DNA of 64,000 nucleotides from Nonomuraea angiospora (GTDB taxonomy: Bacteria; Actinomycetota; Actinomycetes; Streptosporangiales; Streptosporangiaceae). Position numbers and translations under genes: made by a program. The DNA lies in assembly GCF_014873145.1 (NCBI RefSeq), contig NZ_JADBEK010000001.1:9920001-9984000 (forward strand), written 5' to 3'. This document shows positions 36,210 to 52,040 of the stretch, piece by piece (position 1 is the stretch's first letter; each line of letters begins with the position of its first letter). The notes below the pieces were generated by a model. That model did not search any database and was not told the DNA's origin. It worked only from the letters and a program-made list of their open reading frames with translations.

Positions 36210-36857
36210 TCAACTGAGTGACGAGGTGGCGAGCTTCGCGCCGAATCCGAGGAACAGGACGCCGACTCCGGAGGTCAGACCGGCGCTGAGCTTCCTGCGC
36301 CGGCGGAACTGGTTGGCCAGGAAGGTCCCGCCGAAGATCAGCGCCGTCAGATAGAGGAAGCTGAACACCTGGATCACCGCGCCCAGGATGAGGAACGACA
36401 GCGCGGGATTGGCGTAGCCCGGGTCGACGAACGCGATGAAGAACGAGACGAAGAAGAGGATGGCCTTCGGGTTCAGCAGGCTGATCAGCAGGGCCTTGCG
36501 GAACGGGTGCGGCTGGCGTTCCAGCTTGACCTGCGGCTTCTCCTCCTTGGTCGCCTTCCTCGATCGCCAGGCGCCCCTGATCATCTGGAAGCCCATCCAC
36601 GCCAGGTAGCCGGCGCCCGCGTACTTGACGATCGTGAAGAGCAGCGGGTTGGAGCGGAGCAGGGACGCGGCGCCGGCGGCGGCCAGGAACATCAGCACGG
36701 TGTCGCCGATGAAGACGCCCGCCGCGGCCCGGTAGCCCTGGCGGACGCCGTTCTGGGCGGCGAAGCTGAGTACGTACAGGGAGTTGGGGCCGGGCAGCAG
36801 GATGATCAGCAAGGCGCCGATGGCGTAGGCCCAGAAATCGGTGATGCCGAAGAACAT
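36210..36857 (-). CDS. LysE-family amino acid exporter
   Basis: This 215-residue membrane protein of the LysE/RhtB family has six helices, with the N-terminal motif AIGALLIILLPGPNSLYVLSFAAQNGVRQGYRAAAGVFIGD and the later RKALLISLLNPKAILFFVSFF. It would export amino acids or derivatives. GGAGTGA precedes the ATG. It is monocistronic and divergent from the secreted GH5 gene. The specific amino acid cannot be predicted. Confidence 0.92.
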   Translation of the reverse strand: MFFGITDFWAYAIGALLIILLPGPNSLYVLSFAAQNGVRQGYRAAAGVFIGDTVLMFLAAAGAASLLRSNPLLFTIVKYAGAGYLAWMGFQMIRGAWRSRKATKEEKPQVKLERQPHPFRKALLISLLNPKAILFFVSFFIAFVDPGYANPALSFLILGAVIQVFSFLYLTALIFGGTFLANQFRRRRKLSAGLTSGVGVLFLGFGAKLATSSLS

Positions 36858-37082
36858 GACGTCTCACTCCAGGGGGGAGGACCAACCGCACATCACGATA
36901 TCTCGCATCGCGCGTTTGGGCTTTACCCTCAATACCTATTTGTTTACTATGGAATGCAGGTGGGCTCGCTGATGCGCTGGGGCTGGCGGCGCTGCTGTCC
37001 GTGGGTTCGCCGATCGAGATGGGCGCGGTTCGCGCGGCTAGGGGTGGCCGCGTGGACCGCGCCCTTTGACTGTTCGCGTCAA

Positions 37083-37120
37083 TTTGGGTCTTGTCCTCCG
37101 GTGGAGGTCCGATCTACGCT
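37083..37120 (+). promoter_or_regulatory. GH5 promoter: TTTGGGTCTTGT, -35 TTGTCC, -10 TACGCT
   Basis: The 12-mer TTTGGGTCTTGT (37083-37094) is identical to one at 47030-47041 upstream of the first chitinase. A -35-like TTGTCC (37091-37096) and -10-like TACGCT (37115-37120) are 18 bases apart. Conservation between two unrelated genes supports the call. Confidence 0.6.
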
Positions 37121-37126
37121 CCCCAT

Positions 37127-37157
37127 ACTCGTTAGTAAGGTTTCCTAATGAACGAGT
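37127..37157. promoter_or_regulatory. Nested palindromic operator before the GH5 gene
   Basis: The inner imperfect palindrome TAGTAAG-G-TTTCCTA (centre 37140) is flanked by perfect outer arms ACTCGTT (37127-37133) and AACGAGT (37151-37157). It starts 7 bases after the -10 box, over the expected transcription start, so a repressor bound here would block initiation. The inner half GTTTCCTA is shared with the chitinase operator at 47080. Confidence 0.65.
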
Positions 37158-37172
37158 GAGGAGCTCACCCCC

Positions 37173-38564
37173 ATGCATCGATCCGTGCGGCTCGCCGCCA
37201 TCGGCGCGATCGTCGCCGCCTCCTTGCAAGCAGCCCCAGCCCAGGCCGCGACCACGTACGAGGCCGAGAACGCCACCGTCTCCCAGGGCGTCGTCGAGTC
37301 GAACCACGCCGGCTACAGCGGCACCGGGTTCGTCAACTACGACAACACCACCGGCTCGTACGTCGAGTTCGCCGTGGACGCCGCCACCGCCGGCCCCGCC
37401 ACCCTCACCCTGAGGTACGCCAACGGCACCACCGTGAACCGTCCGATGACCATCGCCGTGAACGGCACCGCCACCACCAGGGACTTCCCCGGCACCGGCG
37501 CGTGGACCACCTGGCAGGAGGCCACGCTCACCACCACGCTCAACGCCGGGACCAACACCGTCCGCGCCACCGCCACCACCGCCAACGGCGGCCCGAACCT
37601 CGACCGCCTCGTCCTCGGCACGCCCTCCAGCGCCGGCACGCCCGTCCAGGCCAACGGGCAACTGCAGGTGTGCGGGGTCAGGCTCTGCAACCAGAACGGC
37701 AAGCAGATCCAGCTGCGCGGGATGAGCAGCCACGGCCTGCAGTGGTACTCCCAGTGCCTCAACACCGCCTCCCTGGACGCGCTGGCCAACGACTGGAAGG
37801 CCGACGTCCTGCGCATCTCCATGTACATCCAGGAGGACGGTTACGAGACCAACCCCCGGCTGTTCACCGACCGGGTGCACAACCTGATCGAGCAGGCCAC
37901 CGCCCGCGGCATGTACGCCATCGTCGACTGGCACATGCTCGACCCGGGCGACCCCAACTACAACCTGTCGCGGGCCAAGACGTTCTTCACCGAGATCGCC
38001 CAGCGGCACAACGGCAAGAACAACCTGCTCTACGAGATCGCCAACGAGCCCAACGGCGTCTCCTGGTCCACCATCAGGAACTACGCCAACCAGCTCATCC
38101 CGGTGATCAGGCAGTACGACCCGGAGACCCCGATCCTGGTCGGCACCCGCGCCTGGTCGTCGCTGGGCGTCTCCGACGGGGCGACCGAGTCCGAGATCGT
38201 CAACAACCCGGTCAGCGCCACCAACATCATGTACACGTTCCACTTCTACGCGGCCTCTCATGGCAGCGAGTACCTCAACACGCTGTCCAGGGCCGCCGAC
38301 CGGATCCCGATCTTCGTCACGGAGTTCGGCACCCAGACGGCCTCCGGGGACGGGTCGAACAACTTCACGCGGTCGCAGCAGTACCTCGATCTGCTGGCCC
38401 AGAAGAAGATCAGCTGGGTGAACTGGAACTACTCGGACGACTTCCGCTCGGGCGCCGTCTTCACCGAGGGCACCTGCCCGAACGGCTCCTTCTCCGGCAC
38501 CTCCCGCCTCAAGCCCGCCGGGGTCTGGGTCCGCGACCGCATCCGCACCCCTGACGACTTCTGA
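37173..38564 (+). CDS. Secreted GH5 endoglucanase-like enzyme with N-terminal CBM35/CBM6-type module
   Basis: This 463-residue secreted glycoside hydrolase starts with a Sec signal peptide (about 1-25, APAQA end). A carbohydrate-binding module of the CBM35/CBM6 kind follows (TYEAENATVSQGVVESNHAGYSGTGFVNYDN, about 26-150), then a GH5 catalytic domain from about 165 (RGMSSHGLQWYSQCLN, VDWHMLDPGD). The acid/base is Glu292 in EIANEPNG and the nucleophile Glu384 in FVTEFGT. GH5 subfamily 2 endoglucanases look like this, so cellulose is the likely substrate; mannan is less likely. A strong terminator follows. AGGAG lies upstream of the ATG. Confidence 0.93.
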   Translation: MHRSVRLAAIGAIVAASLQAAPAQAATTYEAENATVSQGVVESNHAGYSGTGFVNYDNTTGSYVEFAVDAATAGPATLTLRYANGTTVNRPMTIAVNGTATTRDFPGTGAWTTWQEATLTTTLNAGTNTVRATATTANGGPNLDRLVLGTPSSAGTPVQANGQLQVCGVRLCNQNGKQIQLRGMSSHGLQWYSQCLNTASLDALANDWKADVLRISMYIQEDGYETNPRLFTDRVHNLIEQATARGMYAIVDWHMLDPGDPNYNLSRAKTFFTEIAQRHNGKNNLLYEIANEPNGVSWSTIRNYANQLIPVIRQYDPETPILVGTRAWSSLGVSDGATESEIVNNPVSATNIMYTFHFYAASHGSEYLNTLSRAADRIPIFVTEFGTQTASGDGSNNFTRSQQYLDLLAQKKISWVNWNYSDDFRSGAVFTEGTCPNGSFSGTSRLKPAGVWVRDRIRTPDDF

Positions 38565-38576
38565 CCCGCGCCCGTC

Positions 38577-38605
38577 CAGCCAGGGTCCTCCCCGGACCCT
38601 GGCTG
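38577..38605 (+). terminator. Intrinsic terminator after the GH5 gene
   Basis: CAGCCAGGGTCC (38577-38588) and GGACCCTGGCTG (38594-38605) form a perfect 12-bp stem with a 5-base loop, followed by TCCCCTTCT. It begins 13 bases after the stop codon. Confidence 0.85.
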
Positions 38606-38675
38606 TCCCCTTCTCCGGGCGCTTGGGGCGTGCGGCCGGGCGCGGGGTGGTGGGGGGCAGGGCAGGATGTGACAT

Positions 38676-41600
38676 GTGCGGATTTGCATTCTCGGGCCGC
38701 TGGAGGTCGAGGGCGACGGGGGACCGATCGCGGTCGGTGGGTTCCGGCTGCGGGCGCTCCTGGCCGTGCTGGCGCTCGAAGCCGGCCGTACCGTCACGGC
38801 CGAGCGGCTGATCGACGCCCTCTGGCCGGACGCCCCGCCCGCCAACGCGGCCAACGCCCTCCAGACCCTGGTCAGGCGGCTGCGGGTGGCGCTTCGCCCG
38901 TACGAGGTGGTGGAGAGCAGGCCGGGCGGTTACACGCTGGCCGTGGCCCCCGACGACGTGGACGCCCTGCGGTTCCGGCGGACGGCCGCGCAGGGGGCCG
39001 GAAAAGGGGAGGGCCTGGAGCTCTGGCGGGGGCCCGCGCTGGCCGACCTGACCTCCGTGCCGCTCCTGGCGAACGCGGCCGCCGCCCTGGAGCAGGACCG
39101 GCTCTCCGCCGTCGAGGCCCGCGCCGAGGCCGGGCTGGCGGCGGGCGCGCCGGTCGATCTGACGTCGGAGGTCGCCGCGCACCCGCTGCGCGAGCGGCTG
39201 GGCGCGCTCGCCATGCGGGCCCTGGCCGCGCAGGGGCGGCAGGCGGAGGCGCTGGAGCTGTTCGAGCGCACCCGCCGCACGCTCGCCGACGAGCTCGGCG
39301 TCGATCCCGGGCCCGAGCTGCGCGCCGCCCATCTGGCCGTCCTGTCGGGAGACGTCCCGGTACGTCCCGCGCCCCCGACGGCCCGGGTCAGGCAGCGGGG
39401 CAACGTACGGACCCCGCGCACCAGCTTCATCGGCCGCGAGGCCGAGCTGGACCAGCTGGGCACCCTCCTCGGCCGGGCCAGGATCGTCACGCTCGTCGGC
39501 CCCGGCGGCGCGGGCAAGACCCGGCTGGCCACGGAGGTGGCGCTCCGGTCGGCCGAGGCGGTCTGGATGGTCGAGCTGGCCCCGGTCAGCGACCCGGCCG
39601 ACGTCCCGGGCGCCGTGCTCGACGCGCTCGGCCTGCGTGGCGACCGCCCGCCGTACCGGCTGCCCGCCGAGGGGGGCGGCCCGGTGGAGCAGGTGGCCGA
39701 GGCCCTCGCGGGCCGCCCGGCGCTGCTCGTCCTGGACAACTGCGAGCACCTCGTCGACGCCGCCGCCGAGCTGGCCGAGCGGCTGCTGACGGAGTGCCAG
39801 GACCTGAGGGTGCTGGCCACCAGCAGGGAGCCGCTCAACCTGCCGGGCGAGCACCTCGCCCCCGTCCCGCCGCTGGAGCCGCCGCCCGTGGGGGCGAGCG
39901 CCGAGCAGGCGGGGGCCTACCCGTCGGTCCGGCTGCTGCTCGACCGGGCCGGGGCCGCGCGGCCGGGGTTCGCCGTGGACGGCGGGAACGTGGCCTCGGT
40001 GGTGGCGCTCTGCCGCAGGCTGGACGGCATGCCGCTGGCCATCGAGCTGGCCGCGGCCCGGTTGCGCACCATGACGCCGAGGCAGCTCGCCGACCGCATC
40101 GACGACCGGTTCAAGCTGCTCACCGGCGGCAGCAGGACCGCGCTGCCGCGCCAGCAGACGCTCAGAGCGGTCGTGGAGTGGAGCTGGGAGCTCCTGGGCG
40201 AGCAGGAACGGGTGCTGGCCAGGCGGCTGGGCGTGTTCGCGGGCGGCGCGACGCTGGAGGCCGTCGAGGCGGTCTGCGGGGGAGCGGCGGACGTGCTGGG
40301 CGCGCTGGCCGACAAGTCGCTGGTCCAGGTCTCGGCCGAGGGCCGCTACTCGATGCTGGAGACCATTCGCGCCTACGCGCTCGAACGGCTGGCGGAGGCG
40401 GGCGAGGTCGACGAGTACCGGCGGCGGCATGCGGCGTACCTGCTGGAGCTGGCCGAACGGGCGGTGCCCGAACTGCGGACGGCCGCGCAGACCGCCTGGA
40501 TCGAGCGGCTGTCCCAGGAGCGCGACGACTTCGCCGCGGCGCTGCGCTACGTCATCGACGAGCGGGACGCCGGGTCGGCGCTGCGGCTGTGCGCGGCGCT
40601 GAACTGGTACTGGTGGATGACCGGCTACCGGAAGGAGGGCGCGACCTGGGCCACGCAGGTGATGGAGCTGGTGGGCGACGACCCGCCCGCCGGGCTGACC
40701 GCGGCGTACACGGCGTGCATGTTCGCGTACGGCGTGGACAAGTTCGGCACGATCGTCAACGACCGGCCCGCCATGCTGGCGCTGTCGGAGCTGATGGACC
40801 GGCTGATCGAGCGGGCCGAGCGGGAGGGGCCGCTGCATCCGATGATCAAGCTCAGCAGGGCCGTCATGGCCGCCGCCGCGGGGGAGGACGACCGCGCCGC
40901 CGGCCTGATCGAGCAGTACATCGAGAGCGACGATCTCTGGTTGTCCAGCTCCGCCCTCATGGTCGGCGGCCGGCTGCGCAGCGAGGAGCGGCTGGAGCGG
41001 TCGGTGGCCGGGTTCAGGCAGCTCGGGGACCGGTGGGGGTTGAGCGAGGCGCTGCTGGGCCTGGCCGAGATGCGGGCCGCCAGGGGAGCGCCGGCGGACG
41101 ACCTGATCGCCGAGACCTGGTCGCTGACCAGCCGTTGGGTCGGGTCGGACGAGGCGATCTCGACGCTGCTCAGGCTGGCGGAGCTGCGGCTGCGGACCGG
41201 CGACCTGGACGGCGCGCGGGATGACCTGGACAGGGCCAGGGCCAGCATCGACGGGGAGACGACGGCGTACACGCGGCTGCTGCTCGGCCTGGCCGAGGCC
41301 GCGCACGCCTGCCACCTCGGCGACCTGGACCGGGGCCTGGAGATCTACCGCGGGCTGTTCCCCCTGCTCGACGAGGCCCCGCCGATGGTGCAGCTGGCCG
41401 CCGCGCTCAGGACCGCTTATGGCCGGGCGCTGGCGCGCGGCGGCGACCTGGACGCCGGGCTCGAACAGCACCGCCTGGCCCTCGAAGTGCTCGGCACGAG
41501 CAGCCCGGACCGGCCGCTGCTGTCGCAGGTGCTGGCCGGGTTCGCGCTGGCCGCGCAGGTCGAGGGCGACCAGGAGCGGGCGGCCGTGCTGTTCGGGGCG

Positions 41601-41759
41601 TCGGCGGCGGTCGAGCCGCACGACGTCTCGCCCGACACCCTGGAGGGCGCCCGGACGGCCAGGGCCGCGCTCGGTGACGAGCACTACGACGAGTGCTTCG
41701 CCAAGGGCGCGGCCATGTCCAGGCAGGAGGTCTACGGGATGGTCGGCAGCACGACGTAG
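38676..41759 (+). CDS. AfsR/SARP-type regulator (BTAD, NB-ARC ATPase, TPR), second copy
   Basis: This 1027-residue paralogue of the regulator at 24944 has a winged helix at 1-90 (RICILGPLEVEGDGGPI), a BTAD at about 95-225 (FERTRRTLADELGVDPGPELRAAHLAVL), an ATPase with Walker A GPGGAGKTR near residue 277 and LLVLDNCEHLVDAAAEL, then C-terminal TPR helices. The GTG at 38676 is supported by GGCAGGA 8 bases upstream. It lacks the Pro-rich tail of its paralogue. The stop overlaps the convergent CocE-type gene by 28 bases. Whether it controls the adjacent hydrolase and DrrAB-like genes is inference. Confidence 0.92.
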   Translation: MRICILGPLEVEGDGGPIAVGGFRLRALLAVLALEAGRTVTAERLIDALWPDAPPANAANALQTLVRRLRVALRPYEVVESRPGGYTLAVAPDDVDALRFRRTAAQGAGKGEGLELWRGPALADLTSVPLLANAAAALEQDRLSAVEARAEAGLAAGAPVDLTSEVAAHPLRERLGALAMRALAAQGRQAEALELFERTRRTLADELGVDPGPELRAAHLAVLSGDVPVRPAPPTARVRQRGNVRTPRTSFIGREAELDQLGTLLGRARIVTLVGPGGAGKTRLATEVALRSAEAVWMVELAPVSDPADVPGAVLDALGLRGDRPPYRLPAEGGGPVEQVAEALAGRPALLVLDNCEHLVDAAAELAERLLTECQDLRVLATSREPLNLPGEHLAPVPPLEPPPVGASAEQAGAYPSVRLLLDRAGAARPGFAVDGGNVASVVALCRRLDGMPLAIELAAARLRTMTPRQLADRIDDRFKLLTGGSRTALPRQQTLRAVVEWSWELLGEQERVLARRLGVFAGGATLEAVEAVCGGAADVLGALADKSLVQVSAEGRYSMLETIRAYALERLAEAGEVDEYRRRHAAYLLELAERAVPELRTAAQTAWIERLSQERDDFAAALRYVIDERDAGSALRLCAALNWYWWMTGYRKEGATWATQVMELVGDDPPAGLTAAYTACMFAYGVDKFGTIVNDRPAMLALSELMDRLIERAEREGPLHPMIKLSRAVMAAAAGEDDRAAGLIEQYIESDDLWLSSSALMVGGRLRSEERLERSVAGFRQLGDRWGLSEALLGLAEMRAARGAPADDLIAETWSLTSRWVGSDEAISTLLRLAELRLRTGDLDGARDDLDRARASIDGETTAYTRLLLGLAEAAHACHLGDLDRGLEIYRGLFPLLDEAPPMVQLAAALRTAYGRALARGGDLDAGLEQHRLALEVLGTSSPDRPLLSQVLAGFALAAQVEGDQERAAVLFGASAAVEPHDVSPDTLEGARTARAALGDEHYDECFAKGAAMSRQEVYGMVGSTT

Positions 41760-43318
41760 GAGGGACCGTGCAGCGTGGTGGTGCCCTTGTCGAGATTGCG
41801 CCCGAATCGGGGGAAGTTCGAGCCCGCCACGTCGATCCTGATCCGGTGTCCGGGCAGGAAGGCGTTCGAGATCGCCCCCAGCCGTACGGTCACCTCGCGC
41901 ACCTCGCCGGGCACCAGGCCCGTCAGCCTGGCGACGCCGTCGGTCAGCAGCTCGGCCCGCCCGTCGGGGTGGACGTCGATGAGCTTGGCCGTGACGTCGG
42001 CGCTCGCGGCGGTCGAGGAGACCCGCGCGACCAGCTCGACCGGGCCGCTCACCTCCACCCGCTCGGTGAGAGGCGCCGTCCGGTGGCGCAGGACGTCGCC
42101 GCGCCCGTCGAGCGGCCGCTGGTCGAGCGGGCCGAACGCCTCGAACGTCATGACCGCCCCGCCGAGCGTCGGCACCGGGTCGCCGGGGTCGCTGACGAAC
42201 TCCGCCGCCCCGCCCTCCCCGGGCGTCACGCTGAGCCCGCCGTCGAAGCCCAGGTGGTACGGCACGGGCCTGGCCCGCCGGATGGGCCAGTCGTCCTCCT
42301 CGCGCCACGCGTCGTCGCCCATCACGAAGATCTTCACCTTCGCCCGGTCGCGCAGGGGCGCCCCGCGCAGCCAGTGGCCGAACCAGTCGAGGTGCACCCC
42401 GGTCCAGTCGATCGCCTCCTGGCTCGCCTGGTCGCCGTAGTCGCGCCCGCAGATGTCCCGCTCGTGCGTGAAGTGCGTCCACGGGCCCACGACCAGCCGG
42501 GACTCGCCGCCCAGCCACTCGAAGTGCTCGATGGAGCCGTCGCGGAAGTAGTCGTACCAGCCGGTGCTGACCAGCGCGGGCACCTCGATGTCGGCGTGCC
42601 GGACGATCCCGCCCCGCCAGAGCGGGTCGAGGGGGTCGGGGGTGTCCATCCACGCCGAGTAGAAGGGCACCAGGTCGGCCAGCAGCGGCTGGTCGCTGAG
42701 CGGCAGCCGCTCCGCCAGCTCCCGCAGGCGCTCGTCGATCCCGTGGGGCAGGCCGATGGCCGCCAGGTACCGGCCCTTGTCCTCCTCCGTGGCCGTGCCG
42801 AGCGCGATGCGGCGGTCCAGCTCGTCCACGGCCAGCACCATCGCGCTGACGGTGAGGATGATGTTGAGGTTGGGGACACCGCCCGGCTGGTAGACGCACT
42901 CGTACAGGCCGGCGGGGGAGACGTGCGGCGCGATGGCCTTCAGGCCCTCGGGGCGCTCCTGGGCCGCGAGAAGCTGCGTGATGGCCAGGTACGAGTCCCC
43001 ATACATCCCGACATTTCCGTCGGACCAGGGCGCGGTCGCCGCCCACCGGACCGCGTCGTAGCCGTCGGCCGCCTCCCCGCTGATGAACCGGAGCTCGCCC
43101 TGCGAGGCGCCGGTGCCGCGGACGTCCTGGATGGCCACCGCGTACCCGGCCGCCACCAGGCGGGGCACGTCGAGGTGGTACCCGGGACCCGTGGCGGCCC
43201 GGCCGTACGGGGTGCGCGACAGCAGCACGGGGAAGCGGCCATCCTCGGCCGGCCGCCACAGCGTCGCCACCAGCTCGGCGCCGTCCCGGGTGGTCATGGT
43301 CTCAGTGGTCTCGATCAT
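41732..43318 (-). CDS. CocE/NonD family hydrolase (X-Pro dipeptidyl-peptidase-like)
   Basis: This 528-residue alpha/beta hydrolase of the CocE/NonD family starts with the catalytic domain (LLSRTPYGRA, VAIQDVRGTGASQGEL). The nucleophile Ser is in VGMYGDSYLAITQ. The C-terminal jelly-roll domain includes TAKLIDVHPDGRAELLTDGVARL and GHRIRIDVAGSNFPRFGRN, as in cocaine esterase and X-Pro dipeptidyl-peptidases. The ATG at 43318 follows AGGAGA by 6 bases; the longer upstream frame overlaps the ABC permease and is rejected. No signal peptide is seen. It overlaps the ABC permease stop by 4 bases. It may hydrolyse an ester or amide of the exported compound. Confidence 0.9.
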   Translation of the reverse strand: MIETTETMTTRDGAELVATLWRPAEDGRFPVLLSRTPYGRAATGPGYHLDVPRLVAAGYAVAIQDVRGTGASQGELRFISGEAADGYDAVRWAATAPWSDGNVGMYGDSYLAITQLLAAQERPEGLKAIAPHVSPAGLYECVYQPGGVPNLNIILTVSAMVLAVDELDRRIALGTATEEDKGRYLAAIGLPHGIDERLRELAERLPLSDQPLLADLVPFYSAWMDTPDPLDPLWRGGIVRHADIEVPALVSTGWYDYFRDGSIEHFEWLGGESRLVVGPWTHFTHERDICGRDYGDQASQEAIDWTGVHLDWFGHWLRGAPLRDRAKVKIFVMGDDAWREEDDWPIRRARPVPYHLGFDGGLSVTPGEGGAAEFVSDPGDPVPTLGGAVMTFEAFGPLDQRPLDGRGDVLRHRTAPLTERVEVSGPVELVARVSSTAASADVTAKLIDVHPDGRAELLTDGVARLTGLVPGEVREVTVRLGAISNAFLPGHRIRIDVAGSNFPRFGRNLDKGTTTLHGPSYVVLPTIP

Positions 43319-44076
43319 CGGACTCTCCTGTTGTAAGCACGAAGGGCAAGAGGGGCGAAGAGGACGAGCAGGGCGGCGGTCCAGCCGAGCGTGATCCACA
43401 CGTCGGAGGCGTGCGGGCCGCCGGTCAGCAGCCCGCGCAGGGCGCCGGCCAGGTGGGAGACGGGGTTGACGCCCATCCACCAGCTCAGCCAGCCGGGCAT
43501 GTCGGTGGCGGGGACGAAGGCGCTGCTGCCGAACGTGAGCGGCAGCAGAACGGCCGTCGCCATCCCCTGCATGGACGTGACGGACTTGGCGATCAGCCCG
43601 ATCCAGGCCGAGCCCCAGCTCAGCGCCATGGCCAGCAGCAGCACGAGCCCGAGCCCGGCCAGCGCGCTCAGCGGGCCGGTCGTGACGCGGAAGCCGACGG
43701 CGTACCCGACGACCATGGACATCACGACGGTGATCAGCAGCGTGAGCAGGTCCGCCAGGATGCGGCCCGTCAACGGCGCGGACCTGGCGATCGGCATGGT
43801 CCTGAACCGGTCGAACACGCCGTTGCCGATGTCGGTGGCCAGGTTCATGCCGGTGGTGATCGTCGACATCAGCGCCACCTGGACGAGCACGCCGGGCAGC
43901 ATGTACGCCACCGCGTCCGCCCGGTCGCCGCCGGCCGCCCCGCCGAACAGGTACACGAAGATGACGATCATGAAAACGGGCTGGAAGAGCAGGCCGAAGA
44001 GCTGGCCTGGCTGGTTCTTCAGGGGGATCAGGCTGCGCCAGGCCAGCGTGAGGCCCTGGGAGAGCGCGGTGGTCAT
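43315..44076 (-). CDS. ABC-2 type exporter permease, DrrB-like
   Basis: This 253-residue permease has six helices. It carries FRTMPIARSAPLTGRILADLL and the ABC-2 domain pattern FVPATDMPGWLSWWMGVNPVSHLAGALRGLL, typical of daunorubicin-resistance DrrB relatives. The start at 44076 overlaps the ATPase stop by 4 bases (ATGA). It forms an exporter with the DrrA-like ATPase; the drug or lipid exported is unknown. Confidence 0.92.
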   Translation of the reverse strand: MTTALSQGLTLAWRSLIPLKNQPGQLFGLLFQPVFMIVIFVYLFGGAAGGDRADAVAYMLPGVLVQVALMSTITTGMNLATDIGNGVFDRFRTMPIARSAPLTGRILADLLTLLITVVMSMVVGYAVGFRVTTGPLSALAGLGLVLLLAMALSWGSAWIGLIAKSVTSMQGMATAVLLPLTFGSSAFVPATDMPGWLSWWMGVNPVSHLAGALRGLLTGGPHASDVWITLGWTAALLVLFAPLALRAYNRRVR

Positions 44077-44984
44077 CGGGGGTCTCCGGTCAGGGTGAGG
44101 AAGACGTCGTCGAGGGAGGGCAGGCGCAGGGCGTGCTCGGCGAGCACGATGCCCGCGTCGTCCAGGTCCCTGAGCAGCACGGGCGGCACCTTGAGGTCGT
44201 GCACCGGCACGCTGACGACGCCGTCGGCGGCCTTCGCGCCGAGGATGGTCTCGGCCTTCTCCAGGTCGGCGGCGCGCAGCGGCCGCACGTCGAGCCGGTG
44301 GCCGCCCGCCAGCGCCTTGAGCTCCGCGGGCGTGCCGGACGCGGCGACCCGCCCCCGGTCGATGACCAGCAGGTCGTCGGCGAGCTGGTCGGCCTCCTCC
44401 AGATACTGCGTGGTCAGCAGCACGGTCACGCCGTCGGCGGTCAGCTCCCTGACCACGTCCCACAGCTCGCCGCGGGCATGGGGGTCCAGGCCGGTGGTCG
44501 GCTCGTCGAGGAACAGGATCCGCGGGCGGCTGACCAGGCTGACGGCCAGGTCGAGGCGGCGGCGCATGCCGCCCGAGTAGCCGCTCGCCGCGCGCCCGGC
44601 CGCCTCCTCCAGGCCGAAGCGGGCCAGCAGCTCGCTGGCCCTGGCCCTGGCCGCCGGCCGTGACAGGCCGAGCAGGCGGCCCACCAGCAGCAGGTTCTGG
44701 GTGCCGGTGAGCTTCTCGTCCACCGAGGCGTACTGGCCGGTCAGGCCGATCAGCTCGCGGACCTTCGCGGCCTGGCGGGTGACGTCGTACCCGCCGACCA
44801 GGGCGCGGCCGGCGTCGGGGCGGGCCAGGGTGGCCAGGACGCGTACCGCCGTGGTCTTGCCCGCGCCGTTCGGGCCCAGGACGCCGAGCACGGAGCCGGT
44901 CCGCGCCGCCAGGTCGACGCCGTCGAGCGCGCTCTTGTCGCCGTACCTCTTGACGAGCCCTTCGGCTTCGATCGCGTACTTCAT
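44073..44984 (-). CDS. ABC exporter ATP-binding protein, DrrA-like
   Basis: This 303-residue ATPase has Walker [11 protein letters not shown]-loop [15 protein letters not shown], signature [12 protein letters not shown], Walker [14 protein letters not shown] and a DrrA-type C-terminal extension ending [16 protein letters not shown]. The ATG at 44984 gives the usual N-terminus ([15 protein letters not shown]). An earlier in-frame ATG at 45014 directly abuts an AGGAGG, leaving no spacing, so I prefer 44984. It is the first gene of the exporter/CocE operon. Confidence 0.92.
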
Positions 44985-44989
44985 GTCTC

Positions 44990-45019
44990 GGAGGATGTCC
45001 GGGCCCGCTGGCATCCTCC
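44990..45019. promoter_or_regulatory. 8-bp inverted repeat in the leader of the DrrA-like gene
   Basis: GGAGGATG (44990-44997) and CATCCTCC (45012-45019) are perfect inverted arms 14 bases apart. On the minus strand the distal arm contains the only Shine-Dalgarno-like AGGAGG of this leader, so folding would hide it. It may be a translational control hairpin or chance. Confidence 0.35.
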
Positions 45020-45145
45020 TGGCATCGACCTGTCAGGGGGATGGTGCATGTCCGTAACTTTGGGCCTTTCCTCCGTCAGGCAACGTCTTCACTCTCGGGT
45101 CAGGCGCCGGACACCATCCGATCCCCAGCGCCCGAGGAGGACGAG

Positions 45146-46975
45146 GTGCGACACCGATTACTCATCCTGCTGGCAGCCCTCAGCCTGATCAGCCTGACCG
45201 GCATGACAGGGGCGGGCGCCGCGGCGGAACCCCCTGCGAACAAGCAGTACCGCGTGCAGGGCCCGGCGGACTCGCGGCAGCGCAGCGCCGTCGCGGCCAC
45301 CGGAGCGGCCATCGAGGAGGTGGCCAAGGACTCGGTCCTGGTCACGGCCACGGAAGCCGAGGTCTCCGCCATCAGGCGGCTCGGCTACCGGGTGGCGGAG
45401 GTGCCGCGCCCGACATCCCCGTCCGGCGTCGGGACGCTTGACTTCCCGCCGGCGGACTCCGGCTACCACAACTACGCGGAGATGAACGCGGACATCAACG
45501 CCCTGGTCGCGGCCCATCCGAACATCGTCAGCCAGTCGAGCTTCGGCACCTCGTACGAGGGCCGGGCGCTGCCCCTGATCAAGATCAGCGACAACGTGGG
45601 CACGGACGAGAACGAGCCCGAGGTGCTCTTCACCGCCCACCAGCACGCCCGCGAGCACCTGACGGTCGAGATGGCGCTGTACATCATGCACCTGCTGGCC
45701 GACAACTACGGCACCGACGCCCGGATCACCAACCTGGTCAACACCAGAGAGATCTGGATCATGCCGGACCTCAACCCGGACGGCGGCGAGTACGACATCG
45801 CCACCGGCTCCTACCGCTCCTGGCGCAAGAACCGGCAGCCGAACTCCGGCTCGTCGGCCGTCGGCACCGACCTGAACCGCAACTGGGCCTACCAGTGGGG
45901 CTGCTGCGGCGGCTCGTCGGGTTCGACGTCGAGTGAGACGTACCGGGGCGCGAGCGCCGAATCGGCCCCCGAGATCAAGGCGGCGGCCAACTGGGTGCGC
46001 AGCCGGGTCGTCGGCGGCGTGCAGCAGATCAAGACCAACCTCGACTGGCACACCTACAGCGAGCTGGTCCTGTGGCCCTACGGCTACACCCTCAGCGACA
46101 CCGCGCCCGGCCTGACCCAGGACGACCGGGACGCGCACGCCACGCTCGGCCAGAACCTGGCCTCCACCAACGGTTACACGCCGGAGCAGGCCAGCGACCT
46201 CTACATCACGGACGGGACCATCGACGACTGGATGTGGGGCGCCTACAAGATCTTCAGCTTCACGTTCGAGATGTACCCGACCGGCGCGAACCCCGGCTTC
46301 TACCCGCCGGACGAGCAGATCGTCCCGCAGACCACCCGCAACCGGGAGGCCGTGCTCCGCTTCCTCGAATACTCCGACTGCGTCTACCGGATCATCGGCA
46401 AGGAGTCCCAGTACTGCGGCACCGGCAACCCGCCGCTGACCGTCTACTCCGACACCTTCGAGACCGCCACGGGCTGGACGGCCAACCCGGCGGGCACCGA
46501 CACCGCGACCCTGGGCCAGTGGGAGCGCGGCGACCCCGAGGCCACCAGCTCCAGCGGCGCCAAGCAGCTCGGCACCACGGTCAGCGGCACGAACGACCTG
46601 GTCACGGGCCGCCTGGCGGGCTCGGCGGCCGGTGACCAGGACATCGACGGCGGCGTCACCTCGATCCAGTCGCCGCCCATCACGCTGCCGTCCACGGGCG
46701 CGCTGAACCTGTCGTTCTCGTGGTACCTGGCGCACGGCTCGAACGCCTCCAGCGCCGACTACTTCCGGGTCCGCGTGGTGGGCAACACCACCACGACGGT
46801 CCTGAACCAGGCGGGCGCGGCGTCCAACCGCAACGGCGCCTGGGCAACCGCGACGGCCGGCCTGAACGCGTTCGCGGGCCAGACGGTCCGCATCCTCATC
46901 GACGCCGCCGACGCCTCGGGCGCCTCCCTGGTGGAGGCCGGCGTGGACGACGTCAGGATCACCCAGCAGCCGTAG
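45146..46975 (+). CDS. Secreted M14 zinc carboxypeptidase with C-terminal beta-sandwich
   Basis: This 609-residue secreted metallopeptidase starts with a Sec signal ([25 protein letters not shown]) and a pro-region to about residue 110. The M14 domain has zinc ligands His167 and Glu170 (HQHAREH) and His302 ([15 protein letters not shown]), substrate-binding DLNRNW and catalytic Glu375 (FTFEMYP). A C-terminal beta-sandwich (about 435-609) resembles a secretion or P-domain-like module. The GTG at 45146 follows GAGGAGG. Codon 5 is TTA (45158-45160), a candidate for bldA-dependent translation. It is monocistronic, with a strong terminator following. Confidence 0.92.
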
Positions 46976-46987
46976 ACCGCAGCACCG

Positions 46988-47024
46988 CTCCGCCGTACAA
47001 GATCCCCTGTCTTGTACGGCGGAG
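46988..47024 (+). terminator. Strong intrinsic terminator after the carboxypeptidase gene
   Basis: A perfect 15-bp stem (46988-47002 with 47010-47024; arms begin CTCCGCCGTACAAG) and a 7-base loop are followed by TCTTGTTTGGG. It begins 12 bases after the stop and isolates the gene from the chitinase promoter immediately downstream. Confidence 0.88.
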
Positions 47025-47029
47025 TCTTG

Positions 47030-47066
47030 TTTGGGTCTTGTAAGCATCCGGTGTCAAGGCTACGAT
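47030..47066 (+). promoter_or_regulatory. Chitinase operon promoter: TTTGGGTCTTGT, -35 TTGTAA, -10 TACGAT
   Basis: TTTGGGTCTTGT (47030-47041) is identical to the element at 37083-37094. The -35-like TTGTAA (47038-47043) and -10-like TACGAT (47061-47066) are separated by 17 bases, the optimal spacing for a vegetative sigma factor. Confidence 0.65.
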
Positions 47067-47075
47067 CGCGCCAAA

Positions 47076-47100
47076 TACTTAGGAAAGTTTCCTATAAGTA
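47076..47100. promoter_or_regulatory. Nested palindromic operator before the chitinase operon
   Basis: The perfect inner palindrome TAGGAAA-G-TTTCCTA (47080-47094) is flanked by TACTTA (47076-47081) and TAAGTA (47095-47100). It lies 10-14 bases after the -10 box, over the transcription start. The same inner arm and the same position occur at the GH5 gene, so one repressor probably controls both. Confidence 0.7.
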
Positions 47101-47128
47101 ATCGGATCCGAGTCAGCACCTCCTTGCC

Positions 47129-47178
47129 CGTGCCGTACGGCTTGCGCTCTCACCCCCCGGTGCAAGCCGTACGGCACG
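47129..47178 (+). promoter_or_regulatory. 17-bp perfect stem-loop in the chitinase leader
   Basis: CGTGCCGTACGGCTTGC (47129-47145) is the exact reverse complement of 47162-47178, with a 16-base loop. The hairpin is in the untranslated leader, after the operator and 21 bases before the GTG. It leaves the GAAGGAAG ribosome site free. It may stabilise the mRNA, attenuate transcription or serve as a protein site; no U-run follows. Confidence 0.75.
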
Positions 47179-47199
47179 CCACCCCCGAAGGAAGAACTC

Positions 47200-48777
47200 G
47201 TGAGACCTCGCGCGATCCTCCTGGCACTCTCCACCCTCGCACTGACCCTGTACGCCCTCCCGGCCCAAGCCGCCCCTCTCGCCCCCGGAGCCACCGCGAC
47301 CTTCGTCAAGGTCTCCGACTGGGGCTCCGGATTCGAGGGCAAGGTCACCGTCACCAACGGCACCACCACGGCCATGAACGGCTGGAACGTCCAGTTCGAC
47401 GTCCCGGCCGGCTACTCGATCCCCTCCGCGTGGGACGCGGTCATGTCCCGCAGCGGGCAGCACTACACCTTCACCAACCCGAGCTGGGCCTCCCCCCTCG
47501 CGCCCGGGGCCAGCGCGAGCTTCGGCTTCAACGGCAGCCCCGGCAACTTCCCCGGCATCACCGGCTGCACGCTGAACGGAGCCTCGTGCGGCGGCTCGAC
47601 GGCCGGGGCCCCGGGCCGGCCGGGCGCCGCCTCGGCCACCGCGACCGGCAGCGCCATCTCCCTCACCTGGGGGGCGTCCTCGGGCACGGTGACCGGCTAC
47701 CGCGTCTACGAGGGCGCCGCAGTCAAGGCCACGGTCACGGGCACCTCGGCCACGATCGGCGGGCTCGGCTCCTGCGAGACCCACACCTACACCGTCAAGG
47801 CGTACAACTCCGTCGGGGAGTCGGACGCCGGCGACCCGGTCACCGCCACCACCAGCGGCTGCACCGGGGGCGGCGGGACGCTGCCCAAGCACTTCCTCAC
47901 CGGCTACTGGCACAACTTCGCCAACGCCGCGGCCGAGCTCAAGCTGTCGGCCGTGCCCGGCGAGTACGACCTGATCGCCATCGCGTTCGGCGAGGCCACC
48001 GCCACCGCGGGCGAGGTCACGTTCGGGATCGACCCCGGGCTGGCCTCGGCGGTCGGCGGCTACACCGACGCCCAGTTCAAGACCGACGTGCAGGCCCTGC
48101 ACCAGCGGGGCAAGAAGGTCATCCTGTCCGTGGGCGGTGAGGCCGGGCGCGTGCAGGTGGCGAGCGCCGCCGCCGCGACGAAGTTCGCCGACTCGGTGTA
48201 CGCGCTGATGCAGTCCTACGGCTTCGACGGCGTGGACATCGACCTGGAGAACGGCCTCAACGCCACCTACATGGCCCAGGCGCTGCGGGCGCTGCGCGCG
48301 AAGGCGGGCTCCGGGCTGATCATCACGATGGCCCCGCAGACCATCGACATGCAGTCCACCGGGGCGGAGTACTTCAAGCTCGCCCTGAGCATCAAGGACA
48401 TCCTCACGGTCGTCCACACGCAGTACTACAACTCCGGGTCCATGCTCGGCTGCGACCAGGCGCAGGCGTACGGGCAGGGCTCGGTGAACTTCATGACCGC
48501 CCTCGCCTGCATCCAGCTCGAGAACGGCCTGCGCCCCGACCAGGTGGCGCTGGGCCTGCCGGCCGGGCCGGGCGCGGCGGGCGGCGGCGTCGTCTCTCCC
48601 TCCCTCGTCAACCAGGCGCTCGACTGCCTGGCCAAGCGCACCGGCTGCGGGACCTTCGTGCCACCGCGCGCCTACCCGGACATCAGGGGCGCGATGACCT
48701 GGTCCATCAACTGGGACGCGAGCAACAACTGGTCCTTCTCCAAGACCGTCAAGCCCCACCTCCAGGGAATGCCATGA
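47200..48777 (+). CDS. Secreted GH18 chitinase with CBM2 and Fn3 modules
   Basis: This 525-residue secreted chitinase starts with a Sec signal (about 1-25, PAQAA), then a CBM2-type module (WGSGFEGKVTVTNGTTTAMNGWNVQFDVPAGYSI and TFTNPSWASPLAPGASASFGFNGSPG), an Fn3 domain (about 140-215, SISLTWGASSGTVTGYRVYEG-type) and a GH18 barrel from about 230. The catalytic motif is FDGVDIDLEN with Glu350 as acid, and all DxxDxDxE acids are present. The GTG at 47200 follows GAAGGAAG. The stop overlaps the next chitinase ATG (ATGA). Confidence 0.94.
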   Translation: MRPRAILLALSTLALTLYALPAQAAPLAPGATATFVKVSDWGSGFEGKVTVTNGTTTAMNGWNVQFDVPAGYSIPSAWDAVMSRSGQHYTFTNPSWASPLAPGASASFGFNGSPGNFPGITGCTLNGASCGGSTAGAPGRPGAASATATGSAISLTWGASSGTVTGYRVYEGAAVKATVTGTSATIGGLGSCETHTYTVKAYNSVGESDAGDPVTATTSGCTGGGGTLPKHFLTGYWHNFANAAAELKLSAVPGEYDLIAIAFGEATATAGEVTFGIDPGLASAVGGYTDAQFKTDVQALHQRGKKVILSVGGEAGRVQVASAAAATKFADSVYALMQSYGFDGVDIDLENGLNATYMAQALRALRAKAGSGLIITMAPQTIDMQSTGAEYFKLALSIKDILTVVHTQYYNSGSMLGCDQAQAYGQGSVNFMTALACIQLENGLRPDQVALGLPAGPGAAGGGVVSPSLVNQALDCLAKRTGCGTFVPPRAYPDIRGAMTWSINWDASNNWSFSKTVKPHLQGMP

Positions 48778-50189
48778 AATTTCGCAGCAAACTCATCGCA
48801 TTACTCGCCGGGATCGCCCTCGCGCTGACCGGCGCCGGATTCACGACCGCCGCGCCCGCCGCGTACGGGGCCGTGCAGCAGCAGTTGGCCGCCGCCTGGG
48901 CCCCGTGGACCTCGTACGCCATCGGCGCGGTCGTCACCTACAACGGCGTCGACTACGTGTGCATCCAGGCCCACACCTCGCAGCCCGGCTGGGAGCCGCC
49001 CAACGTGCCGGCCCTCTGGAAGGTCGGCTCGGGCGGCGGCAACCCCGGCGCCCCCGGGCAGCCCGGCGCGGTCAACACGTCCGTGACGAACTCCAGCATC
49101 TCGCTGAGCTGGGGCGCCTCGTCCGGCACCGTGACCGGCTACCGCGTGTACGAGGGCTCGACGCAGCGGGCCCAGGTCACCGGCACCAGCGCGACCGTCT
49201 CCGGGCTCGGCACGTGCACGACGCACACCTACACGGTGAAGGCGTACAACTCGGCGGGAGAGTCGGCCGGCCGTGACGCGACCGCCACCACCAGCGGCTG
49301 CACCGGCGGCGGCGGGACGAAGATGCCCGGCGCCCCCTACCTCTACATGGGCTGGGGCGACCCGCCGAACCCCGGCACCGTGATGGACGCGACCGGCGTC
49401 AAGTCGTTCACGATGGCGTTCATCCTGTCCAGCGGCGGCTGCACTCCGGCGTGGGACGGCAACCGCCCGCTGACCGGCGGCGCCGACCAGCAGGCCATCA
49501 ACACGATCAAGTCGAAGGGCGGCAGCGTCCAGATCTCCTTCGGCGGCTGGCAGGGCAACAAGCTCGGTCCCAACTGCTCCACGCCGCAGGCGTTCGCGAA
49601 CGCGGTGCAGCAGGTCATCAACGCCGTCGGCCCCGCCGTCGTGGACTTCGACATCGAGAACACCGACGAGTTCGAGAACTACACCGTCCAGGACCGCATC
49701 CTGAACGGGATCAAGATCATCAAGCAGAACAACCCGAACGTCAAGGCCGTGGTCACCTTCGGCACCTCCAAGACCGGCCCCACCGCGCCCGGCGTTCGGC
49801 TCATCAACCAGGCCAAGGCGCTCGGCGTGCCGATCGACAACTACACGATCATGCCGTTCGACTTCGGCGGCTCGAACATGTACCAGGACACCGTCAACGC
49901 CTCCGAGGGCCTGAAGAACGCGCTGAAGAGCGCGTTCGGGTGGAGCGACGCCCAGGCGTACGCGCACATGGGCATCTCGGGCATGAACGGCCTGTCCGAC
50001 CAGCAGGAGACGACCTCCCCGTCCACGTGGACGCAGATCCGCGACTGGGCCAAGTCCCATGGCCTGACCAGGCTCGCCTACTGGGCCGTCAACCGTGACC
50101 GCCCCTGCCCGGGCGGCGGCGTGGTCTCCAACTGCAGCGGCATCTCCCAGTCCAACTGGGAGTTCACCCGCATCACCGCCGGATTCTGA
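48774..50189 (+). CDS. Secreted GH18 chitinase with CBM5/12-type and Fn3 modules
   Basis: This 471-residue secreted enzyme starts with a Sec signal (about 1-33), then a CBM5/12 chitin-binding module (WAPWTSYAIGAVVTYNGVDYVCIQAHTSQPGWEPPNVPALWK), an Fn3 domain almost identical in wording to that of the previous chitinase (GASSGTVTGYRVYEGS), and a GH18-like barrel from about 185. The active-site strand is VVDFDIENTDE: Glu295, Asp293 and Asp291 are present, but the first Asp of DxxDxDxE is replaced by Ala, as in a divergent GH18 subgroup. Codon 10 is TTA (48801-48803). It is translationally coupled to the first chitinase. Confidence 0.93.
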   Translation: MKFRSKLIALLAGIALALTGAGFTTAAPAAYGAVQQQLAAAWAPWTSYAIGAVVTYNGVDYVCIQAHTSQPGWEPPNVPALWKVGSGGGNPGAPGQPGAVNTSVTNSSISLSWGASSGTVTGYRVYEGSTQRAQVTGTSATVSGLGTCTTHTYTVKAYNSAGESAGRDATATTSGCTGGGGTKMPGAPYLYMGWGDPPNPGTVMDATGVKSFTMAFILSSGGCTPAWDGNRPLTGGADQQAINTIKSKGGSVQISFGGWQGNKLGPNCSTPQAFANAVQQVINAVGPAVVDFDIENTDEFENYTVQDRILNGIKIIKQNNPNVKAVVTFGTSKTGPTAPGVRLINQAKALGVPIDNYTIMPFDFGGSNMYQDTVNASEGLKNALKSAFGWSDAQAYAHMGISGMNGLSDQQETTSPSTWTQIRDWAKSHGLTRLAYWAVNRDRPCPGGGVVSNCSGISQSNWEFTRITAGF

Positions 50190-50243: not shown

Positions 50244-52040
50244 ATGAATCTCCGAGGACCGGTCGCGCTCGCCCTGGCTCTCGTCGCGCTGCACGCCACC
50301 CCCGCCTACGCCGCGAACATCCTGGCCAACCCCGGATTCGAGTCCGGGCTGAGCGGCTGGACGTGCGGCACCACGTCCGGCGCGCAGGCCGTGTCGTCGC
50401 CCGTGCACGGCGGGACCCGCGCGCTCCAGGCCACCCCGCAGGGCAGCGACTACGCCCGCTGCCAGCAGACCGTCACCGTCAAGCCGAACACCGCCTACCA
50501 GCTCTCGGCCTGGGTCCAGGGCAACTACGTCTTCCTCGGCGCCACCGGCACCGGCGGCACCGACCCGCAGACGTGGGGCGCGCCGGGCGCGGCGTGGAGC
50601 CAGCTCAAGACCTCCTTCACCACCGGCGCCTCGACCACGTCCGTGACGGTGTACGTCAACGGCTGGTACGGCCAGGGCGCCTATCTGGCCGACGACGTGG
50701 TGCTCGACGGCCCCGGCGGCACCCCGGACACCCAGGCGCCGACGGTCCCCGGCACCGTGTCCGTCGGCGGCGCCACGAGCTCCAGCCTCACCGTGAGCTG
50801 GGGAGCGTCCACGGACAACGTCGGGGTGGCCCGCTACGAGGTCTCCCGCGACGGCGGGGCGCCGGTCGCCGTCACCGGGACGAGCCACCAGGCCACCGGG
50901 CTCGCCGCGGCCACCACGTACCGCTTCAAGGTCCGGGCCTGCGACGCCGCGGGCAACTGCTCGGCCTACACCCCCGAGGCGAGCGGCACCACGACGAGCG
51001 GCGGCGGGGGCGGCGGGCTGCCCAAACGGGTCATGGTGGGCTACCTGCACGCCTCATTCGCCAACGGATCCGGATATATCCGGATGAGTGAGGTGCCGAA
51101 CGAGTGGGACATCATCAACCTCGCCTTCGGCGAGCCCACCTCGGTCACCTCGGGCGACATCAGGTTCCGGCAGTGCCCGGCGGCCGAGTGCCCCAACGTC
51201 GAGCCCGAGGCCGACTTCGTCGCCGCCATCAGGGCCAAGCAGGCACAGGGCAAGAAGGTGCTGATCTCGATCGGCGGCCAGAACGGCCAGGTCCAGCTCA
51301 CGACCGCGGCGGCCCGCGACAAGTTCGTGGAGTCGGTGTCCGCGATCATCGACAGGTACGGCCTGGACGGCCTGGACATCGACTTCGAGGGCCACTCGCT
51401 CTACCTCAACCCCGGCGACACGAACCTCGCCGGCCCGACCACCCCGGTCGTCGTCAACCTGATCTCGGCGCTGAGGTCGCTCAAGAGCCGGTACGGAGCC
51501 AAGTTCGTGCTGACCATGGCGCCGGAGACGTTCTTCGTCCAGCTCGGCCACCAGTTCTACGGCCCGGGGCCGAACGGCGCGGCCGACAGCAGGAGCGCCT
51601 CCTACCTGCCCGTCATCCACGCCCTGCGCAACGACCTGACCCTCCTCCACGTGCAGGACTACAACTCGGGCCCGATCATGGGCCTCGACGGCCAGTACCA
51701 CACGATGGGCGGGCACGACTTCCACGTGGCCATGACGGACATGCTGCTGGCCGGCTTCCCGATCATGGGCAACGCGGGCAACGTGTTCCCGCCGCTGCGC
51801 CAGGACCAGGTGGCCATCGGGCTGCCCGCATCACCGAACGCCGGCAACGGGTTCACCACCGTGGCGGAGGTGCAGAAGGCGTTCGACTGCCTCGCCAAAG
51901 GCACGAACTGCGGCACCTACCGGCCGCGCGGCGTCTACCCGAACCTGCGCGGCCTCATGACCTGGTCGATCAACTGGGACAGGTACAACGGCTTCGAGTT
52001 CTCCCGGAGCCACCGGGCGTACCTGAACGCCCTCACCTGA
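50244..52040 (+). CDS. Secreted GH18 chitinase with N-terminal CBM4/16-type and Fn3 modules
   Basis: This 598-residue secreted chitinase starts with a Sec signal (about 1-24), then a beta-sandwich carbohydrate-binding module (NILANPGFESGLSGWTC, the CBM4/9/16 pattern, to about 155), an Fn3 domain (about 165-255, SLTVSWGASTDNVGVARYEV) and a GH18 barrel from about 262 with DGLDIDFEG and Glu382 as acid. GGAGG precedes the ATG. The stop overlaps that of the convergent NarG-like gene by 8 bases. Each of the three enzymes carries a different binding module, so they probably attack different forms of chitin. Confidence 0.94.
   Translation: MNLRGPVALALALVALHATPAYAANILANPGFESGLSGWTCGTTSGAQAVSSPVHGGTRALQATPQGSDYARCQQTVTVKPNTAYQLSAWVQGNYVFLGATGTGGTDPQTWGAPGAAWSQLKTSFTTGASTTSVTVYVNGWYGQGAYLADDVVLDGPGGTPDTQAPTVPGTVSVGGATSSSLTVSWGASTDNVGVARYEVSRDGGAPVAVTGTSHQATGLAAATTYRFKVRACDAAGNCSAYTPEASGTTTSGGGGGGLPKRVMVGYLHASFANGSGYIRMSEVPNEWDIINLAFGEPTSVTSGDIRFRQCPAAECPNVEPEADFVAAIRAKQAQGKKVLISIGGQNGQVQLTTAAARDKFVESVSAIIDRYGLDGLDIDFEGHSLYLNPGDTNLAGPTTPVVVNLISALRSLKSRYGAKFVLTMAPETFFVQLGHQFYGPGPNGAADSRSASYLPVIHALRNDLTLLHVQDYNSGPIMGLDGQYHTMGGHDFHVAMTDMLLAGFPIMGNAGNVFPPLRQDQVAIGLPASPNAGNGFTTVAEVQKAFDCLAKGTNCGTYRPRGVYPNLRGLMTWSINWDRYNGFEFSRSHRAYLNALT

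Follow-up and report, generated by a model that had tools for sequence, protein, structure and literature searches.

A CsnR-box and a conserved upstream element at GH5 and chitinase promoters of Nonomuraea angiospora

Two promoters of Nonomuraea angiospora, one before a GH5 gene and one before a chitinase operon, share an upstream 12-mer and a similar palindrome, which raises the question of what regulator reads them and how far its control extends. Both lie on the forward strand of a 64-kb stretch of DNA (the window; C1:9920001-9984000) in a 13,093,168-base single-contig genome. A preliminary description of the window had proposed that a single regulator, acting through a TAGGAAAGTTTCCTA-like operator, co-controls secreted cellulase and chitinases.

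The two promoters of the window

The 12-mer TTTGGGTCTTGT (core TTGGGYCTTG) was located, as previously placed, at 37083-37094 and 47030-47041, and no further copy was present in the window even at one mismatch (0.02 expected). At both sites it runs into a putative -35. The promoter boxes and their spacing were also as first described: TTGTCC (37091-37096) and TACGCT (37115-37120) with an 18-base spacer in the GH5 promoter, and TTGTAA (47038-47043) and TACGAT (47061-47066) with a 17-base spacer in the chitinase promoter. A search of the window with TAGGAAANTTTCCTA at up to three mismatches detected only 37133-37147 (two mismatches) and 47080-47094 (none), with 0.01 expected; the palindromic 15-mers are TAGTAAGGTTTCCTA at 37133 and TAGGAAAGTTTCCTA at 47080. 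The distance from the first base of the 12-mer to the first base of the 15-mer is exactly 50 bases in both promoters.

The palindromes match an operator that is already known, the CsnR-box (AGGAAANTTTCCT), through which a ROK repressor controls chitosanase genes in Streptomyces. According to the available text of the published accounts, the S. lividans ROK protein CsnR acts as repressor of a chitosanase gene via a palindrome overlapping the start site (PMC3048496), the palindrome bound by CsnR overlaps the csnN106 start site and deletion of csnR leads to derepression (PMC3048496, PMC6097792), and (GlcN)2 was the strongest competitor in the 2018 review that sets out the CsnR-box and the csnREFGHK cluster (PMC6097792). 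The match to the CsnR-box was exact at 47080, within the 17-mer TTAGGAAAGTTTCCTAT (47079-47095), and had two mismatches at 37133, within the CsnR-box-like 17-mer TTAGTAAGGTTTCCTAA (37132-37148), which is kept in GH5 orthologs. The GH5 box retains positions 5 and 9, given as the main determinants in the available text of PMC6097792.

The GH5 promoter precedes a gene (37173-38564) for a CBM35-GH5 protein with a signal-like N terminus. Its catalytic domain resembles endoglucanase E5 of T. fusca (E5/Cel5A-like), and its CBM35 is nearest that of an exo-beta-D-glucosaminidase, so that the label "cellulase" is uncertain. The chitinase promoter is followed by genes for a CBM2-fn3-GH18 chitinase (47200-48777), a CBM5-fn3 protein with a chitinase-like catalytic domain (48774-50189; closest solved structure by sequence, Exochitinase 1, 9buf) and a CBM4_9-fn3-GH18 chitinase (50244-52040), the last assigned to the same operon from its spacing. 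All four genes are on the forward strand.

The palindromes had also been described as nested within outer arms. The letters of these arms are present, at 37127-37133/37151-37157 and 47076-47081/47095-47100, but their centers are 2 bases and 1 base, respectively, off those of the inner palindromes. Boxed sites (n = 92) from 13 genomes were compared; they had been picked by the 17-mer, which makes conservation within it a product of the selection. Beyond the 17-mer, left-right complementarity was 0.46 at offset 9 and 0.53 at offset 11 (0.35 expected for each) and 0.21 to 0.38 at the other offsets (0.26 to 0.31 expected). Being off-center and not conserved across regulon sites, the outer arms were ruled out as part of a shared operator.

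Two further repeats were observed near these promoters. The off-center CTCG...CGAG flank of the GH5 box (37127-37157) was kept in 11 of 27 boxed GH5 orthologs, in two of them as CTTG/CAAG, with a cross-locus rate for such flank pairs of 112/702; it is possibly a leader hairpin. An inverted repeat, CCGCCGTACAAGA/TCTTGTACGGCGG (46990-47022), lies 3' of an M14 peptidase gene and abuts the chitinase 12-mer on its upstream side; it is likely a terminator without a T run.

Box targets in N. angiospora and in other genomes

A version of the genome scan suggested in the preliminary description detected 15 boxes with the 15-mer at up to two mismatches, versus 1 for the reversed pattern, and 12 versus 0 with the 17-mer. 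Carbohydrate-active, sugar transport or regulator genes, mostly for chitin or chitosan, adjoin 11 of the 15 boxes. These are a ROK regulator gene heading ABC sugar transporter genes in a csnREFGHK-like operon, an NgcE-type binding protein gene (TIGR03851; 624 bits versus a cutoff of 400), genes for GH3, a GH46 chitosanase (one mismatch to the 15-mer) and an AA10 LPMO with a CBM5, the GH5 gene and GH18 operon of the window, two GH18 genes elsewhere in the genome, and the genes with CBM35 and PF05426 domains described below. All four GH18 genes above the Pfam cutoff lie behind boxed promoters (three boxes, the two window genes being counted as one operon); a fifth GH18 match, at 10320484, was below the cutoff. 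No clear target was assigned to the other four boxes, which adjoin L017, L023 (near DAO/PixA genes), an MFS gene and a DUF305 gene. The L017 protein has a signal-like N terminus, and its gene is also boxed in genome G004 (88% identical). These results support a TAGGAAAGTTTCCTA-like operator read by a shared regulator, as judged from boxes that center on chitin and chitosan genes. Of the proposed co-control, the chitinase side is supported by sequence and the cellulose side is not; the regulon appears to be one for chitin and chitosan.

Boxes were also detected between a CBM35-GH88-like gene and a divergent CBM35-glucose/sorbosone dehydrogenase gene (L021, 7995-8009) and at a PF05426 (alginate-lyase-like) gene (L022, 7014-7028), and these genes are boxed in relatives too. 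One could guess that they point to uronic acid polymers that accompany chitosan in some fungal walls. A search for sequence relatives of the L017 and PF05426 proteins in the PDB found none, and the polyuronate-degrading branch therefore stays a guess.

Across named GH46 loci, taken as the best 80 of 286, a box with up to three mismatches was present within 400 bases upstream in 66 of 80, compared with 0 of 80 in a downstream control; the remaining 14 had no box at that threshold. A GH46 gene of the betaproteobacterium Albitalea terrae (L191) is 78% identical to that of N. angiospora and has no box; horizontal transfer is possible.

Within Nonomuraea, all 54 genomes were boxed (17-mer, up to two mismatches), with 2 to 28 boxes each, a mean of 11 and a total of 603 versus 4 for the reversed control. 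Since these genomes share ancestry, orthologous loci do not count as independent observations. Seven named Streptomyces, Kitasatospora and Embleya genomes had 2 to 4 boxes, and five named Streptosporangium, Sphaerisporangium, Microbispora, Actinomadura and Microtetraspora genomes had 5 to 20. In a sample of the class, a match was found in 101 of 394 genomes. The family of the window accounted for 35 boxed genomes of 41, with at least five boxes in 13 and fewer than five in 28, whereas none of the 353 genomes outside the family had at least five. Many-box regulons are thus frequent, but not universal, in the family.

Gene classes were assigned, by BLAST to the N. angiospora regulon and by Pfam/NCBIfam on selected proteins, beside 79 boxed sites from 12 genomes (G001, G004 and G054 to G063, with 8 of the 12 boxes of G058). 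The best hits were to GH46 (n = 11), ROK (n = 10), GSDH-CBM35 (n = 8), the CBM5 chitinase of the window (n = 8), other chitinases (n = 8), GH5 or its CBM35 (n = 4), GH3 (n = 4), NgcE-like SBP (n = 4) and LPMO (n = 3), where the shared CBM35 alone can produce a best hit to GSDH or GH5. Among the open reading frames (ORFs) adjoining these boxes, 33 of 104 matched no protein of the N. angiospora regulon. Pfam analysis of ten selected proteins, which placed some of these unmatched ORFs, gave GH75 (two), GH8, GH9, a GH2 glucosaminidase, two phosphoesterases, HlyD and a weak GH18, with one unmatched.

This regulon resembles that of CsnR in S. lividans and S. coelicolor (csnREFGHK, csnA) in its operator consensus, in the position of the box at the promoter or start region, in a ROK repressor gene heading a six-gene transport and hydrolysis operon with a box of its own, and in a boxed GH46 gene. 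Boxed GH75- and GH2-type genes were found in the named Streptomyces genomes. It differs in having a dozen or more boxes rather than 2 to 4, in adding all four GH18 genes above the cutoff together with LPMO, NgcE, GH3, GH88-like and PF05426 genes, and in the extra TTGGGYCTTG on the GH5 and many GH18 promoters. The available text of PMC6097792 reports boxes at GH46, GH2, GH5 and GH75 genes, with three to four boxed genes in most genomes, and chitin genes without boxes, the single exception being Streptosporangium roseum, with 15 boxed genes that include chitinases. That rule, as reported outside S. roseum, is broken in N. angiospora, where GH18, AA10 and NgcE genes are boxed; because S. roseum already breaks it, boxed chitin genes are a difference in scope and not a defining feature. 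The putative CsnR regulon of S. roseum is alike in its boxed chitinases and its 15 boxed genes, while the many-box genomes found here extend across Nonomuraea and into Sphaerisporangium, Streptosporangium, Microtetraspora and other genera of the family.

The upstream element and the leader stem-loop

The 12-mer itself was not a genome-wide mark of the regulon: at up to one mismatch on both strands there were 9 matches versus 8 for the reversed control, and of the four exact copies, the two outside the window (C1:3755093 and 4765580) had no box nearby. Its likeness in the two promoters could then reflect descent only, one promoter having been copied before two neighboring genes (10 kb apart in this genome) and the upstream element having been under no selection. 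This is unlikely in view of the orthologous loci, which were the best 30 per search (the GH5 gene was found in 39 and the chitinase gene in 41 of the 54 Nonomuraea genomes). No box was present at up to three mismatches in 3 of 30 GH5 loci and 1 of 30 chitinase loci. TTGGGYCTTG preceded the box by 46 to 49 bases in 29 of 29 boxed chitinase orthologs and in 25 of 27 boxed GH5 orthologs; the other two GH5 orthologs were one base off the motif. The bases between element and box varied, and the GH5 promoters formed two groups with different middles in which the element was kept. The case for a meaningful 12-mer is built on this conservation at a near-fixed distance before the box.

The element accompanied only part of the regulon. 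None of the 11 other boxes tested in N. angiospora had it, including those of two GH18 genes and of the ROK, NgcE, GH46, GH3 and LPMO genes. It was present at 11 of the 79 boxed sites, which had been fetched irrespective of the element, and absent from nine GH18/GH5-type sites. Nine of the 11 were GH18/GH5-type by BLAST and two (L296 and L344) were placed in the chitinase class by eye from their frames; the association with class was 11/20 versus 0/59 with these two (P = 2e-8) and 9/18 versus 2/61 without them (P = 1e-5). A composite pattern of the element, 34 to 42 bases and a degenerate box was detected in 112 of the 298 genomes of the family, spread over 20 of 68 genera, compared with 0 for a reversed control. 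In 28 of 30 fetched composite loci, an ORF followed that matched a chitinase, GH5 or CBM35 protein of the regulon, three of these being other CBM35 proteins (L397, L409 and L411); the other two had no called ORF long enough to be of use. Sphaerisporangium, Streptosporangium and Microbispora also have the element in front of other GH18-type genes. The 86 distinct composites in the fetched loci reduced to 27 at 80% identity, and their consensus is biased toward the pattern by which they were selected.

On these comparisons, TTTGGGTCTTGT is a separate conserved element. Since its TTGGG half immediately precedes the putative -35 and its YCTTG half extends into that box, the element may be an activator site or a specialized extended -35. 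What appears to be new, as far as the sequences go, is TTGGGYCTTG at a near-fixed distance before a CsnR-box on the GH5 and many GH18 promoters. A string search of the literature from 2012 to 2026 gave, among the matches listed, no title on such element-plus-box promoters, and the account of S. roseum in the available text of PMC6097792 has no mention of the upstream element or of a leader hairpin.

The leader of the chitinase operon contains a stem-loop (47129-47178) with a 17-bp stem (47129-47145/47162-47178), between the operator and the start codon and directly preceding the ribosome-binding site. In 22 of 29 relatives, this site had a perfect inverted repeat of at least 8 bp. An alignment of 26 leaders, obtained from the 29 boxed ones by dropping an overly short leader, a leader that lacked the hairpin and a near-duplicate, had 18 pairs with 98.3% of cells paired and compensatory double changes in six pairs; the alignment that scores the structure is also its source, and the sequences are related. 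Shuffled controls had a mean of 1.5 compensatory pairs, with 0 of 500 as high, and slid structures had 0 to 2. The loop is C rich and nearly unchanged across relatives. No Rfam family matched in 36500-47400. The stem-loop is a candidate RNA element.

The candidate repressor and its proposed action

No repressor gene had been noted in the window, and no relative of the candidate ROK protein was found there: the best tblastn match had an E value of 0.046 over 17 residues. The gene for this protein, which has an N-terminal winged helix, is at C1:232485-233678, 9.7 Mb from the window on the contig (3.4 Mb for a circular chromosome), with a perfect box of its own 20 bases upstream of the start. Its orthologs were boxed in 30 of 30 Nonomuraea loci (the best 30 of the genus matches) and, at up to two mismatches, in 11 of 12 named genomes of other genera, the twelfth having a three-mismatch site approximately 290 bases upstream. 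The order ROK-SBP-permease-permease-GH4-BadF-type kinase was present in two Streptomyces genomes and in Embleya, Streptosporangium and Sphaerisporangium; it is the csnREFGHK cluster of the literature, which has been described in Kitasatospora (available text of PMC5635096). Both sites of the window are very probably operators of a CsnR-type ROK repressor. The boxes, their targets, the boxed csnR-like operon and their conservation were observed directly; we infer binding of the boxes by the ROK protein, repression and an inducer.

The box could instead be read, alone or along with the CsnR ortholog, by another ROK protein, of which the genus has hits with 46 to 49% identity, or by a different regulator. 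Other ROK proteins have much of the winged helix in common with the CsnR ortholog, and four Nonomuraea genomes (G007, G013, G024 and G026) had no close CsnR ortholog among 34 candidates scored per genome (best hits, ∼46 to 49% identity) and yet kept 2, 5, 4 and 5 boxes, respectively, one in each being part of a composite module. In these four, either another protein reads the boxes or the CsnR gene was missed. As a rival reading this is quite improbable, since only 1 of 11 other ROK hits in the named genomes was boxed and the recognition-helix stretch TGLSKPTASQL, identical in 15 of 15 CsnR orthologs compared, differed in all 11. The four genomes also had fewer boxes than the other 50 (2 to 5 versus a median of 10.5; one-sided P = 0.0008), although box number also tracks genome size (rho = 0.65).

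DasR belongs to the GntR family and acts via dre sites, and CebR is a regulator in Streptomyces of genes like those boxed here. The DasR regulon of Streptomyces is similar in its control of chitinase genes and its amino-sugar signal, but a dre-like site was absent from the N. angiospora regulon promoters tested. Although DasR regulates such genes in Streptomyces (available text of PMC6097792), control by DasR (chitin) or CebR (cellulose), with a secondary role for the palindrome, is most improbable and was rejected on site matches at regulon promoters and genome-wide dre counts: the best matches to the dre core at seven regulon promoters had three to four mismatches, the best CebR-like site near GH5 had four, the dre core was not enriched genome-wide at up to one mismatch (23 versus 39 reversed), and S. 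roseum has no DasR ortholog according to the same text.

The palindrome follows closely on the -10, where transcription is expected to begin, so that a bound repressor would block initiation. Release would be effected by chitosan-derived glucosamine oligosaccharides, by analogy with Streptomyces CsnR, and perhaps also by chitin oligosaccharides imported by the boxed NgcE-type transporter. Across Nonomuraea and much of the family, the regulon would span chitin and chitosan breakdown, and TTGGGYCTTG, at the -35 of the GH5 promoter and of many GH18 promoters, would act as an activator site or specialized extended -35. A fuller model is advanced tentatively, as a serious possibility: chitin and chitosan use would be merged under CsnR in a large part of the family, and the chitinase/GH5 branch would have a two-part promoter at which TTGGGYCTTG recruits an activator or makes a special sigma contact and CsnR represses at the start, so that both relief and activation are needed, with the leader hairpin adding an RNA-level step on the chitinase operon.

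The available text of PMC6097792 treats the control of chitin (DasR) and of chitosan (CsnR) as separate, with one strain excepted. The merged arrangement appears to be the rule in Nonomuraea and to recur within this family of soil actinobacteria. The set of promoters assembled here lets the growth of this regulon be traced, and TTGGGYCTTG offers a ready bait for a further regulator of chitinases.
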